Origin: Terriglobia bacterium
GTDB lineage: Bacteria > Acidobacteriota > Terriglobia > Bryobacterales > Bryobacteraceae
Direction of reading: 5' to 3'
DNA: 64,000 bases
NCBI GenBank assembly: GCA_020073445.1
Contig: JAIQFE010000019.1
Location: 1-64,000 of the forward strand
How positions within the stretch are numbered: position 1 is the first letter of the stretch; the number at the start of each line of letters is the position of its first letter. The translations under genes were made by a program, and so were the position numbers. Of the stretch, positions 41,244 through 46,148 are shown in pieces. The notes beneath the pieces are model-generated. The model was not told the origin of the DNA. It was given only the letters and a program-made list of their open reading frames with translations, and made no database searches.

Positions 41244-43889
41244 ATGGAGCCAATAGGACACAATCCACAATCGGTTGAAGAGCTCTCGCACGCCGTACGG
41301 AGTCGTGAAGAACTGCTTGCGACATTTCTGCGCTACGTCCCGGCCCCGGTGGCGATGTTTGATCGCGAAATGCGTTATCTCCAGGCAAGTGATCGCTGGT
41401 GTGCGGATTACGGGTTGGACAGCGCGTACATATTGGGCCGATCGCATTACGAGATCTTCCCTGATATCCCGCAACGATGGAAGGAGATTCATCGCCGCTG
41501 CCTTGCCGGTGAGGCTGTGCGAGCTGAAGACGATGTCTTTGAACGTGCCGACGGCGGCCACATTCATCTGCGGTGGGAAGTCCGACCCTGGGGAAATCGA
41601 GACGGGCTTCCGGAGGGTATTCTGATTTTTTCGGAAGATATCACTCAGCGCAAGAAACTGGAGTACGCGTTACAGGACGAGCGGGATCGGCTCGAAAAGA
41701 TTCTTGCTACGACGCCGGGCGCCATTTGCGCCTTTCGATTACGTCCGGACGGCTCGACTTCACTCCCTTACGCGAGCCGAGCCTTCCAGAGAATGCTCCC
41801 GGAACTTCCGGATTTACGTCAAGACGCCTCGCCGCTGTTCGCCATGATGCATCCCGAGGACGCGATACGCGTACGCGCCAGCATTGCGGAATCCGCCCGG
41901 ACGATGACGCCTTGGCGTGACAATTTCAGGATGCTCACTCCGTCCAGGGGAACGATGTGGTTCGAGGGGCACTCCTTGCCGGAGCGTGAGCCGGATGGCA
42001 GCGTTTACTGGTACGGCCTGCTCACGGACATCTCCGAGCGCACGCGGATGGAGGACGCGCTGCGGGAAAGAGATGCGATCATCACAAGTGTCTTCGATTC
42101 GGCTTCCCAAGGCATCGTGGGGGTATATGCCGATGGAACGATCCAACTCTTGAATCGGATGGCCGAGAAAATCTTCGGCTACGAAAAGGAAGAACTGCTC
42201 GGGCGGCCACTCGAGATTCTAGTGCAGGAAGGCGCACGGGGGCGGCACGCCGAGTACTGTCGGGCTTACTTTGCTAAGCCCCAAGACAGACCGATGGGCG
42301 TCGGATTTGATCTCGAGGGACTCCGTAAGGACGGCTCGACCTTCCCCATCGAAATCGGCTTGAGTTCCATCGAAGCGGCTCAGGGCAGGCTGGGGGTCGC
42401 TTTCGTGACCGACATCACGGCCCGCAAGCGGGGGGAGGAGGCGTTACGCAACAGCGAGGAGCGGCTGCGGCTGGCCATCGAAAGCACCGGGTTGGGCACG
42501 TTCGACTACGATCCGCGTACCGGTGCGATGGCTTGGTCCGATATCACCAAACGCCACTTCGGGTTGCCGCCGGATGCGGAACTCGACGTGGAAACGTTCT
42601 ATGAAGCCCTTCATCGGGACGACCGCGAGAGACTGCGGCAACTGTTGCAAAGCGTTCTTCAGCCCGAGAGCGGCGGGCACTACGCTACGGAGTATCGCAC
42701 GATCGGAATCCAGGACCGGAAGGAGCGATGGATCTCTGCATGGGGCCAAGTCTTCTTCGATGGGGAGGGGCACCCGAAGCGCTTCATCGGCGTGACCCAG
42801 GACGTCACCCAGCGCAAGCGAACCGAGGAAGCGCTCCGCCAGCGCGAACAGGAAGTCAGCACGCTGCTCGACGATACTCCGGACGTGATCCTGCGCTTGG
42901 ATCGCCAGTTCCGCTTCACCTACGTCAATGCGAAGACGGCAAGCATCGCGGGAATCCCTCGGGAGGCATTCATCGGGAAGACGTCCCTGGAACTCGGGTT
43001 ACCGCAAGACCTGATTGATATCTGGATGGTCGCGACCCGCCGCGCGTTCGAGACGGGACAGCCTGCCACTCTCGAATTTTCCTATCCGTCTCCCGGTGGC
43101 GCGACCGAGTGGGAGGAGCGGTTTATTCCGGAATGCGCGGCGGATGGCTCGGTGGAATCGGTCTTGGTGATCGGACGCGACGTGACGGAGCGAAAGCGCC
43201 TGGAACGGATCGCCGAAACGAACCGCCAGGAAATTCGTGCTCTGTCCGCCAGTCTCCTTACGGCGCAGGAGGAGGAACGCCGAAGAGTGTCGCGCGAGCT
43301 GCACGATCAGATCTGCCAGCAACTCGCTTCCCTGGCTTTCGACATCGGCGGGCTGGTAGCCGATCCCCCGGCTCCGGCAGAAGCGCGAAACCGGCTGAAG
43401 GCCCTGCAAGCCCGCGTCGCCAAAGCGTCCGACGAGACTCGCCATATCGCGTACAAGTTGCACCCGTCCATTCTGGATGATCTGGGAGTAGTAGCTTCGC
43501 TGAGGAGCCTGTGCAAGGAGTTTTCGGAGCGGGCTCCGGATGTCGAGTTAGCATTCAACAGCGACGCCTTGCCTGGCACTTCTGTGTCCCGCGAGGTGAC
43601 GTCGTGTGTTTATCGCGTCGCCCAGGAGAGTCTGCAGAATATAGCGAAACATGCCAATGCCAAGCACGTCTCGATGACCTTCAGGCTGCAGGGAAGAGCT
43701 ATAGAACTCACCATCGCTGACGACGGCATCGGTTTCGATCCTGAGGCTATTCGGGGCCGAGGAGGCTTGGGATTGATCGGAATGGAGGAGCGGGCGCGGC
43801 TCGTCAATGGGAAGCTATCGATCGCCTCGAAACCAGGTCACGGTACCCGGCTTGCACTGGAAGTTCCCTTGGACGATGCGAGCCTATGA
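41244..43889 (+). CDS. Multi-PAS histidine kinase, NarL-type (HisKA_3)
   Basis: The 881-residue protein has about five PAS/PAC sensor domains in tandem (~20-650), each seen through G-R-x-x-x-E and D-I-T-x-R-K-type ends (for example I-T-Q-R-K-K and I-T-A-R-K-R). The phosphoacceptor His687 is in R-R-V-S-R-E-L-H-D-Q-I-C-Q-Q, marking HisKA_3, and the HATPase domain follows with D-D-G-I-G-F-D-P and G-L-G-L-I-G-M-E-E-R. No transmembrane helix is evident, so it is probably cytoplasmic and senses an internal or diffusible signal. The regulator starts four bases before its stop. Confidence 0.92.
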   Translation: MEPIGHNPQSVEELSHAVRSREELLATFLRYVPAPVAMFDREMRYLQASDRWCADYGLDSAYILGRSHYEIFPDIPQRWKEIHRRCLAGEAVRAEDDVFERADGGHIHLRWEVRPWGNRDGLPEGILIFSEDITQRKKLEYALQDERDRLEKILATTPGAICAFRLRPDGSTSLPYASRAFQRMLPELPDLRQDASPLFAMMHPEDAIRVRASIAESARTMTPWRDNFRMLTPSRGTMWFEGHSLPEREPDGSVYWYGLLTDISERTRMEDALRERDAIITSVFDSASQGIVGVYADGTIQLLNRMAEKIFGYEKEELLGRPLEILVQEGARGRHAEYCRAYFAKPQDRPMGVGFDLEGLRKDGSTFPIEIGLSSIEAAQGRLGVAFVTDITARKRGEEALRNSEERLRLAIESTGLGTFDYDPRTGAMAWSDITKRHFGLPPDAELDVETFYEALHRDDRERLRQLLQSVLQPESGGHYATEYRTIGIQDRKERWISAWGQVFFDGEGHPKRFIGVTQDVTQRKRTEEALRQREQEVSTLLDDTPDVILRLDRQFRFTYVNAKTASIAGIPREAFIGKTSLELGLPQDLIDIWMVATRRAFETGQPATLEFSYPSPGGATEWEERFIPECAADGSVESVLVIGRDVTERKRLERIAETNRQEIRALSASLLTAQEEERRRVSRELHDQICQQLASLAFDIGGLVADPPAPAEARNRLKALQARVAKASDETRHIAYKLHPSILDDLGVVASLRSLCKEFSERAPDVELAFNSDALPGTSVSREVTSCVYRVAQESLQNIAKHANAKHVSMTFRLQGRAIELTIADDGIGFDPEAIRGRGGLGLIGMEERARLVNGKLSIASKPGHGTRLALEVPLDDASL

Positions 43890-44515
43890 AACACACTCGA
43901 GTCTTGTTGGCCGACGACCATCCGCTTACGCTCGAAGGCCTTCGCGCGTTTCTTGAACCGCATCTGGAAATCGTCGGGACGGCGATGGACGGGCGGGCTC
44001 TGGTGGACGCGGCTCTTCGCTTGAAACCGGATCTGATTATCCTGGACATCACGATGCCGCTGCTGAACGGCGTCGACGCCGCCCTCCAGATCAAGAAGAG
44101 TCTGCCCGACGTGAAGTTGCTGTTCGTTACGATGCACGTGAACCCTGCCTACCTGGAAGCCGCGCTCAACGCGGGCGCGACAGGATACGTTCTGAAATCA
44201 GCCGCACGCGAAGAGCTTCTAGACGCCATCAAAACCGTCATGGATGGCCGGATCTATGTAACTCCGGCTCTTGCGACCAAACCGTTGGAGCGCTCCACCG
44301 ATCCCGCGCGTGCCGCGGCGAGTCTTCACCTCAGCACGCGGGAGCGCGAAACTTTACAATTGATCGCCGAGGGCCGCGCGGCGAAAGAGATTGCCCACGT
44401 TCTCAATATCTCCGTCAAGACAGTTGCGTTTCACCGAGACAACATCAAGAAAAAGCTGGGCTTACGCACCACCGCCGAATTGACCAAGCACGCCATCGAA
44501 CAAGGCTTAGTTTAG
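43886..44515 (+). CDS. NarL/LuxR-type response regulator
   Basis: The 209-residue protein has a receiver domain starting T-R-V-L-L-A-D-D-H-P-L-T-L-E-G, with phosphorylation site Asp54 in L-I-I-L-D-I-T-M-P, Lys in Y-V-L-K-S-A, and a C-terminal LuxR helix-turn-helix (L-S-T-R-E-R-E-T-L-Q-L-I-A-E-G, then V-K-T-V-A-F-H-R-D-N-I-K-K-K-L). It overlaps the histidine kinase gene by four bases and forms the cognate pair. Downstream repeats (44550-44569) are possible binding sites. Confidence 0.95.
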   Translation: MKHTRVLLADDHPLTLEGLRAFLEPHLEIVGTAMDGRALVDAALRLKPDLIILDITMPLLNGVDAALQIKKSLPDVKLLFVTMHVNPAYLEAALNAGATGYVLKSAAREELLDAIKTVMDGRIYVTPALATKPLERSTDPARAAASLHLSTRERETLQLIAEGRAAKEIAHVLNISVKTVAFHRDNIKKKLGLRTTAELTKHAIEQGLV

Positions 44516-44549
44516 CTCCAGAAACCCTGGTTCTTGGCAAAGATTAAAA

Positions 44550-44569
44550 TTACCTAGTATTTTACCTAG
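44550..44569. promoter_or_regulatory. TTACCTAG direct repeats
   Basis: Two 8-bp copies of ttacctag lie 12 bp apart (44550-44557 and 44562-44569) in an AT-rich spot 35 bp after the regulator stop and 108 bp before a mini-gene. Tandem sites about one helical turn apart suit a dimeric response regulator, perhaps the one just encoded. This is inference. Confidence 0.35.
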
Positions 44570-44676
44570 CTTTCCCAGACGGCCGATCCCTGATAGTTTT
44601 GGCTTATCGGAGGACGCAGCGGGGCTGGAGAGATAGCGCTCCAAAGAGGGCGATCTATCCAGCCCGGGGAGAGTGG

Positions 44677-44886
44677 ATGCCGAAGCTGGATCTTGAAAAA
44701 ACACAACCACCGTTCCTGGAGCAAGCGGAAGCAGCATCGGACGTCTATTGCGAGCATTGTCCGATGTGGGGGCAGTGTTCAGTGTGCGGGTCGGACCACC
44801 CACGCTATCTACTCCTGAAGAGCGAGTTGTCCGTAACGCAGCGGCTCCCTTTCAAATCATTGGGAAAGGAGCGATCTCTGAGATGA
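44677..44886 (+). CDS. Small Cys4 (zinc-ribbon-like) protein, unknown
   Basis: The ATG at 44677, with ggggagag upstream, gives 69 residues. Cys25, Cys28, Cys34 and Cys37 form C-x2-C-x5-C-x2-C, a pattern for a structural zinc site. The N-terminal part is Glu/Lys-rich and the C-terminal part basic. I recognise no family. The stop codon overlaps the start of the next mini-gene as ATGA, a sign of translational coupling. It lies between the kinase/regulator pair and a PEP-CTERM protein gene. Confidence 0.5.
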   Translation: MPKLDLEKTQPPFLEQAEAASDVYCEHCPMWGQCSVCGSDHPRYLLLKSELSVTQRLPFKSLGKERSLR

Positions 44887-45089
44887 ATCGGACCGATCCG
44901 TGGTGTGTGTATCTGACCGCTCAAATGCACGACAAGTACGGATTTTCTAAGGATGTGGCGCACCAGATGGTTTGCAGGTGGCTGAAAACGATCGAGAGTG
45001 TACGCACTCCCCGTAGCCGTGAGACCGAGAACCCAAAAGCATCGCGCCAGGTGCGAGCTCAAAACAAAATGGCCTCGGCCAGGGTGTGA
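44883..45089 (+). CDS. Small basic protein coupled to Cys4 protein, unknown
   Basis: The ATG overlaps the TGA of the preceding mini-gene and has ggaaaggagcg upstream. The 68-residue product contains a segment likely to be helical (Y-L-T-A-Q-M-H-D-K-Y-G-F-S-K-D-V-A-H-Q-M), then W-L-K-T-I-E and a long basic tail rich in Arg, Lys and Ser that could bind nucleic acid. Two cysteines are present. No family was recognised. Confidence 0.5.
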   Translation: MNRTDPWCVYLTAQMHDKYGFSKDVAHQMVCRWLKTIESVRTPRSRETENPKASRQVRAQNKMASARV

Positions 45090-45115: not shown

Positions 45116-45129
45116 ACACGATATCGTGT
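45116..45129. promoter_or_regulatory. 14-bp perfect palindrome
   Basis: acacgatatcgtgt is a perfect palindrome located 141 bp before the PEP-CTERM gene, in the gap after the mini-genes. It could be an operator for a dimeric regulator; the binder is unknown. Confidence 0.3.
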
Positions 45130-45269: not shown

Positions 45270-46148
45270 ATGCGCTGGGAATTGCAGGGCGCGACCTTGC
45301 TTGCTCTTGGGATGATGCTTGTACCATCCGCCAGGGCCTCGGTGATTTATAACAATCTGACCCCCACTAATCTGATGGCGATGGCCTCGCGGCCCGACAG
45401 CGGCGGGGGCGTGTTTGAAATAGAATCAGCCGACGATTTCGTACTTGGCTCGCCGGCCAGTATCTTTTCGGCTTCCTTTACGGGCTTGATCGTCCCGGCG
45501 CCGCAAGGCAGCCCCACAAGCGTGTCACAGGTGGTTGTAGAGATTTACCGTGTGTTCCCTTTGGACTCAGATACTGTCCGGACTCCTAACGTCCCCACCC
45601 GCGCCAATTCCCCGTCCGATGTGGCTTTCGATTCCCGCGACAGCGCGGCGAGCGGGTTGTCCTTCTCAACCTCGACGCTGAACGTGAACTTTACGGCGCT
45701 CAACAGCGTCCAGCCTGGGGGGATTCACCCGGCGCCAAATCAAGCCACCCTGGGCAACGGGCCGGTCACCGGACAAGAGGTGCGGTTCGATGTGTCTTTC
45801 GCCACGCCGTTCGACCTGCAGGATGGCCACTATTTCTTCATCCCTCAGGTGCTGCTGTCGAATGGCGGGCAGTTCTACTGGCTCTCGGCATCCAGGCCGA
45901 TCAGCGGAGCCGGAACCACTCCGTTCTCCCCCGATCTGCAGGCATGGACCCGGGATGCCGATCTCGACCCCGACTGGCTGCGAGTAGGCACGGACATTGT
46001 CGGTCCTGCGGCCAACGGTAATCCGGCTCCCACCTTCAATGCCGCTTTTTCCTTGGAAGGGACGGTTGTTCCCGAGCCCTCGAGCATCGTGTTGATGATC
46101 GGCGGCCTGGCCCTGATCGGCGCTCGAAAATATCGGGAATCGCGTTAA
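45270..46148 (+). CDS. PEP-CTERM sorting-domain protein
   Basis: The 292-residue protein has a signal peptide ending near SARAS and ends with V-P-E-P-S-S-I-V-L-M-I-G-G-L-A-L-I-G-A-R-K, the PEP-CTERM signal: the V-P-E-P motif, a transmembrane stretch and a basic tail. Such proteins are processed by exosortase and anchored in or exported to the surface or exopolysaccharide. The middle is beta-rich with F-D-V-S-F and V-E-I-Y-R segments. The ribosome binding site acggagga lies 9 bp before the ATG. No exosortase gene is in the window. Confidence 0.9.
   Translation: MRWELQGATLLALGMMLVPSARASVIYNNLTPTNLMAMASRPDSGGGVFEIESADDFVLGSPASIFSASFTGLIVPAPQGSPTSVSQVVVEIYRVFPLDSDTVRTPNVPTRANSPSDVAFDSRDSAASGLSFSTSTLNVNFTALNSVQPGGIHPAPNQATLGNGPVTGQEVRFDVSFATPFDLQDGHYFFIPQVLLSNGGQFYWLSASRPISGAGTTPFSPDLQAWTRDADLDPDWLRVGTDIVGPAANGNPAPTFNAAFSLEGTVVPEPSSIVLMIGGLALIGARKYRESR

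Follow-up and report, generated by a model that had tools for sequence, protein, structure and literature searches.

Two overlapping small genes on the forward strand, ORF1 (44677–44886, 69 aa) and ORF2 (44883–45089, 68 aa), in the 64,000-nucleotide stretch of Terriglobia bacterium DNA analysed here (the window), probably constitute a translationally coupled stress-effector operon, which would be the output of the adjacent histidine kinase and NarL-type response regulator. According to the proposed mechanism, the kinase would be activated by some signal and the phosphorylated regulator would bind a TTACCTAG direct repeat located between its own gene and ORF1, upon which an mRNA with a structured leader would be transcribed and ORF1 and ORF2 co-produced via their ATGA overlap. 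ORF2 would then act as a shortened CsbD/YjbJ-type stress protein, consisting of the C-terminal helical hairpin and a disordered tail, with ORF1 as its Cys4, probably metal-binding, partner, with which it may interact directly. This reading is the most economical one, because CsbD is linked to stress and because Hsp20 and BON genes, both members of stress-associated families, occupy the matching slot in the related genome G021.

The two mini-genes with an ATGA junction are present as described in a first-pass annotation, with the ATG of ORF2 (44883–44885) placed over the TGA of ORF1 (44884–44886), an arrangement which would couple their translation. The ribosome binding sites it had assigned are likewise recognizable as Shine–Dalgarno-like stretches 5′ of both frames, GGGGAGAG (44666–44673, +) for ORF1 and AAAGGAG (44865–44871, +), which lies inside ORF1 and is kept in genome G014, for ORF2. 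As this AAAGGAG encodes KER, the conservation of these residues near the end of ORF1 is not to be read as protein conservation alone. The overlapping pair was found again in G014 (L020:5001-5204 and L020:5201-5410) with the same ATGA and, as here, downstream of the same histidine kinase and NarL-type regulator genes. Among 101 genomes including the own genome (G000, 102 contigs), ORF1 has a clear homologue in one other genome, G014 (E 5.1e-15), while homologues of ORF2 were found in G014 (E 5.1e-18) and G005 (E 1.2e-5); weak matches with E 0.01–1, in 44 further genomes for ORF1 and 51 further for ORF2, were not counted as homologues. Three loci with weak matches in this ORF2 search, G000:C82, G019:C316 and G043:C134, had lower E values in the four-row profile search discussed below. 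The genomes are mostly draft assemblies, and because the search scores no more than a restricted set of candidates in each of them, weak relatives can be missed.

Both frames are under purifying selection. With respect to G014, ORF1 has a dN/dS of 0.29 and ORF2 one of 0.32 (0.08 for the regulator), values apart from the dN/dS near 1 expected of frames that are not conserved. When the same substitutions were placed at random in 10000 trials, 9999 (ORF1) and 9967 (ORF2) gave more amino acid changes than the 27 and 31 seen, the means being 36.8 and 38.7 and placements as low as observed occurring in 1/10000 and 33/10000 trials, respectively. The conservation rests on few sequences, as the pair is present in only two genomes and the leader in only three. 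It is barely conceivable that the open reading frames are chance or decaying frames and that only the DNA or RNA leader is functional. The narrow spread, with a two-row ORF1 profile at E 0.01 recovering 2 of 237 family genomes (own and G014), and the fast divergence of the ORF2 tail (dN/dS 0.46) would fit such frames, but the random-placement test, the identical Cys4 block, the conserved overlap and a pN/pS of 0.35 for ORF2 residues 1–40 in frame versus 1.2 in the other two frames speak against it. The first-pass view of the frames as real, with their overlap kept in G014, is thus sustained.

ORF1 contains a C-x2-C-x5-C-x2-C arrangement, correctly noted in the first-pass annotation, which forms a putative metal site (C25-x2-C28-x5-C34-x2-C37; 44749–44787, +) and of which all four cysteines are kept in the one homologue found, that of G014. 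In the window, 895 stop-to-stop frames are 40 aa or longer, and 1 of them shows this exact spacing. The two homologues share 56% identity and an identical block YCEHCPMWGQCSVCGSDHP, and the constraint on ORF1 resides mainly in the Cys block, as pN is 0.09 versus a pS of 0.75 within its 25 codons, compared with 0.39 versus 0.49 outside. Considering the spacing of the cysteines, ORF1 probably binds metal. Pfam returned no match for P0001 (ORF1) or P0003 and NCBIfam none for P0001; no match to P0001 at E 0.1 was present in plasmid or phage records, and no relative beyond G014 was recovered from the genomes, viral contigs and plasmid/phage records searched. As judged by these comparisons, ORF1 is a lineage-specific Cys4 protein without known family. 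Its structure model (mean pLDDT 53.7) is too poor for fold comparison. A derivation of ORF1 from a DUF2934-Hsp20 protein was rejected, as ORF1 and the G021 Hsp20 protein show no significant likeness at their N-termini (164 and 133 of 2000 shuffles were as good).

The statement that no known family fits thus holds for ORF1 but not for ORF2, which resembles the C-terminal half of CsbD/YjbJ and most likely derives from CsbD but is no full member, as it lacks the N-terminal half and does not reach the Pfam score. On its own, ORF2 (51% identical to the G014 and 26% to the G005 homologue) looks like an orphan; it stayed below the Pfam cut-offs (Nudc_N came nearest, with E 0.048), matched no NCBIfam model and only weakly unnamed PHROGs families (E 0.009 to 0.067). 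It was placed via paralogues in its own genome. A three-row profile of the ORF2 family gave six matches in 4 of 396 genomes of the phylum, namely ORF2 itself, two more places in the own genome (E 6.8e-4 and 0.0068) and, outside it, another three, including one in G509, where no CsbD-like protein was seen. One of the own-genome matches is a full CsbD (Pfam E 7.8e-21, 74.2 bits) and the other a short protein, C82, with QERYG at the same place. Such short paralogues, which carry the CsbD-type QERYG and MTWDQ, form a bridge to the full-length proteins.

The relationship was assessed by several comparisons. When the ORF2, G014 and G005 proteins were each aligned with own-genome CsbD, the score was reached by 0 of 2000 shuffles, with an ungapped match of 26 residues in the case of ORF2. 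By hhalign, the ORF2-family profile matched the profile of nine full CsbD proteins of related genomes with a probability of 95% over 36 columns (E 3.4e-8, which refers to that single profile–profile comparison). With a CsbD profile as query and 5000 shuffles as background, the E values of the four short proteins were 8e-7 (C82), 9e-6 (G005), 0.008 (G014) and, for ORF2 itself, only 0.018, the best shuffle scoring 0.67, and the three-row profile recovered all nine CsbD proteins (E 5e-6 to 0.01) from among 5000 shuffles, the best of which scored 0.065. Searching 177635 PDB sequences with the four-row profile gave 1YWW (E 0.0026) and 1RYK (E 0.015) as the top two, albeit with weak E values; the three-row profile, without C82, returned the same top two in the same order with E values of 0.055 and 0.14, which are not significant alone. 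A CsbD query against the PDB finds these same two entries, and two in total, below E 0.1.

At E ≤0.1 the four-row profile matched in 103 of 237 family genomes, a number that includes weak and chance matches. Among 30 loci taken from these matches, 23 possess a full CsbD by a relaxed motif (an earlier, stricter motif flagged fewer), as does L115 by eye; the other six are ORF2 and its homologues in G014 and G005, a short relative in G019, the locus L100 and the locus L096, at which only the C-terminal part of CsbD is in frame. The G019 relative, MTWDQMSKEWRKNLVTKLQERYG, resembles CsbD with its middle removed. Further short CsbD-like proteins that lack the N-terminal half are encoded at L091:1480-1671 (−) and L059:2558-2809 (−), of which one locus belongs to G019 and the other to the own genome; Pfam reports CsbD for neither. 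Behind the short CsbD-like gene of G005 lies a gene for a 163-aa protein (L018:1069-1560, −), which matched SIMPL/DUF541 weakly, at an E of 0.0012 that falls short of the cut-off.

In common with representatives of CsbD (PF05532), Escherichia coli YjbJ (1RYK), Pseudomonas aeruginosa PA4738 (1YWW) and Bacillus subtilis CsbD, ORF2 is of small size, and sequence comparisons identify in it the C-terminal CsbD hairpin LVGKxQERYG-x2-KEEA-x6-W, with the shared pattern L-x4-[QH]-[ED]-[RK]-[YH]-G-x2-K-x2-A-x6-W. Unlike CsbD, ORF2 lacks the N-terminal half with WKQ-xKG-x-WGKLTDDD, which is absent from its short relatives as well, has an added tail predicted to be disordered, and overlaps the gene of a Cys4 partner. 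The PF05532 model, with a gathering score of 40 bits, reported neither ORF2 at E up to 10 nor the short relatives at E up to 1. The short proteins G000:C82:8560-8748, G019:C46:24259-24405 and G005:C55:1616-1870 share the architecture of ORF2 and the pattern W-x3-L-x2-[QK]-[LM]-[QH]-x2-[YH]-G, but, in contrast to ORF2, no ORF1-type partner match was found in G005, in G019 or elsewhere in G000.

AlphaFold2 predicts two helices for ORF2, residues 6–19 and 23–41 (mean pLDDT 92–93 for residues 11–30), followed by an unstructured tail with averages of 48–49 for the blocks from residue 41 on. The predicted hairpin (residues 6–41; 44898–45005, +) was matched by Foldseek to the C-terminal helices of CsbD, two CsbD structures being listed, 1YWW at rank 2 with an rmsd of 0.9 Å and 1RYK at rank 8 with one of 0.8 Å; there were 90 matches at E ≤10, none of them at E ≤0.001 and none significant. 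As an IHF-sized relaxosome chain (rank 1), IHF (rank 3) and HU (rank 9) appear beside them, and HU weakly in the four-row PDB search (E 0.36 and 0.85), ORF2 could alternatively be a truncated HU/IHF-type protein that binds DNA by its hairpin and basic tail. We regard this as very unlikely, since CsbD outranks HU by sequence, HU is missing among the four PDB matches of the three-row profile, the short paralogues show the CsbD-type motifs, and the ORF2 model ends in the low-confidence tail where an HU/IHF protein would continue from the hairpin into a beta-sheet DNA-binding arm. The basic tail pointed out in the first-pass annotation does exist, with a net charge of +5, but is not conserved, the charge being +4 in G005 and −1 in the nearest relative G014, which leaves the argument for nucleic acid binding weak; DNA binding read from the basic tail was consequently rejected.

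The suggestion of a toxin–antitoxin-like pair, in which one small protein would be toxic and the other would neutralize it, found no support. Size, overlap and order of the genes are compatible with it, but no toxin, antitoxin or defence family was detected in Pfam, NCBIfam, PHROGs and PADLOC, ORF1 is missing from the plasmid and phage records, ORF2 resembles a stress protein, and in either genome that possesses the pair it occupies the same position downstream of one regulator. In viral contigs, no relative was confirmed for A6, A8 or P0004. A toxin–antitoxin or defence function was thus rejected as a candidate and has, in our estimation, only a slight chance of being correct. As ORF2 is CsbD-like and ORF1 a new four-cysteine protein, the pair rather looks like a small stress-response unit.

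Upstream of the pair, a PAS histidine kinase (HisKA_3 and HATPase_c domains; 41244–43889, +) overlaps by ATGA with a NarL/LuxR-type response regulator (Response_reg and GerE domains; 43886–44515, +), both assigned by domain search, of which the latter, 92% identical to its G014 counterpart, is the proposed controller of the pair. In a search of 61 genomes, the approximately 120 nt between regulator and ORF1 were conserved in G014 (E 2.7e-16) and G021 (E 6.2e-14). They contain the element TTAAAATTACCTAGTATTTTACCTAG (44544–44569, +), with the direct repeat TTACCTAG-N4-TTACCTAG of 12-base period as a putative response regulator site; the first copy is kept in G014 and G021, where the second is degenerate. 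To judge from this arrangement, the regulator may bind the TTACCTAG repeat. When ≤3 mismatches were allowed, a 26-base pattern derived from the three loci was recovered from 3 of 101 related genomes (the reversed pattern as control from 1 of 101) and only at these loci, so that a wide, genome-wide regulon was rejected as unsupported at the 26-base length.

Two hairpins follow the putative site. The first is small (CTGATA...TATCGG; 44590–44610, +) and shorter in G021, while the main hairpin (44622–44665, +) ends directly at the Shine–Dalgarno-like sequence of ORF1. Folding of the main hairpin in its context gave z = −2.34, with 4 of 200 shuffles as good. In a hand alignment of the three genomes, 19 of 21 cells of the outer stem are paired and two pairs covary, a combination reached by 0 of 20000 arm shuffles. 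A covariance model, R1, run on 200 family genomes matched the window, G014 and one site in G230 (E 0.92), which was set aside as a chance match because it lies inside a 512-aa reading frame; G021, which may not have been part of the sample, is not among these matches. Rfam gave nothing at gathering score in the window and, even with E up to 10 allowed, nothing that falls on the leader, the three weak matches being located outside it, so that assignment of the leader to a known RNA family was rejected.

In G021, the same leader type lies behind a regulator end, FVLSISFKTVAFHRENIKKKLGLGTTAELTKHAIEQGLI, that agrees by eye with the one in the window at 33 of 39 residues; where the window has the mini-gene pair, a DUF2934-Hsp20 gene and a BON gene follow it. 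Regulator end, repeat and hairpins of this locus (L042) are of the same kind as in the window, but the proteins differ, which suggests a local and exchangeable output of the two-component system. The region L042:2514-5100 (−) comprises the Hsp20 gene, a gene for a protein with three BON stretches and a 404-aa frame that appears sugar-nucleotide transferase-like by eye. Of two further genomes with regulator relatives, G055 shows no pair within 1.5 kb behind the gene, and the G020 locus ends too near the gene to show one.

The main competitor of the stress-effector operon is a scenario in which ORF1, ORF2 or both serve as accessory regulators, with feedback to the kinase or the response regulator. 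In each of the two genomes that possess it, the pair lies next to the genes of the two-component system, and Cys4 sites are common in protein–protein adaptors; a G021 leader located before Hsp20 and BON genes, however, fits a change of output genes better, and we consider feedback regulation unlikely. Rather doubtful is also a more far-reaching extension, an exchangeable two-component output slot in which the site and the two-hairpin leader carry either Hsp20/BON genes or a new module, a half-length CsbD hairpin together with a Cys4 mini-protein as its redox or zinc switch. If this extension holds true, ORF1 would be a dedicated partner of a CsbD-type protein, and the leader a new cis-regulatory RNA.

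With respect to the stress-effector operon, a stress function of ORF2 would be in line with what is described for its full-length relatives. CsbD is introduced as a general stress protein, the exact role of which is not yet known (PMC10294668), and a table in PMC5437024 includes yjbJ among the genes tightly controlled by sigma-S in Salmonella. As described in PMC11109978, the yjbJ-motif RNA of Streptococcus is, as here, a two-hairpin leader before a CsbD-related gene, but it comes from another host and possesses a U-stretch consistent with a terminator, while in the window no terminator-like site was found on the forward strand between 44500 and 45300; the two are likened by description, not by sequence.

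While CsbD itself is known, the novelty of this locus would lie in a CsbD-like protein of half length and its coupling to a new Cys4 partner. CsbD is a common protein, and a natural half-length version, if indeed coupled to the Cys4 protein and placed behind one signalling system, would offer a minimal construct, along with a candidate partner, with which to study the role of CsbD.

Just 3′ of ORF2, a perfect 14-bp palindrome, ACACGATATCGTGT (45116–45129), without a T-run, represents a possible protein-binding site. Directly downstream, the window continues with the gene of a PEP-CTERM protein (45270–46148; Pfam E 2.2e-4), while in G014 a different, convergent gene lies behind the pair.
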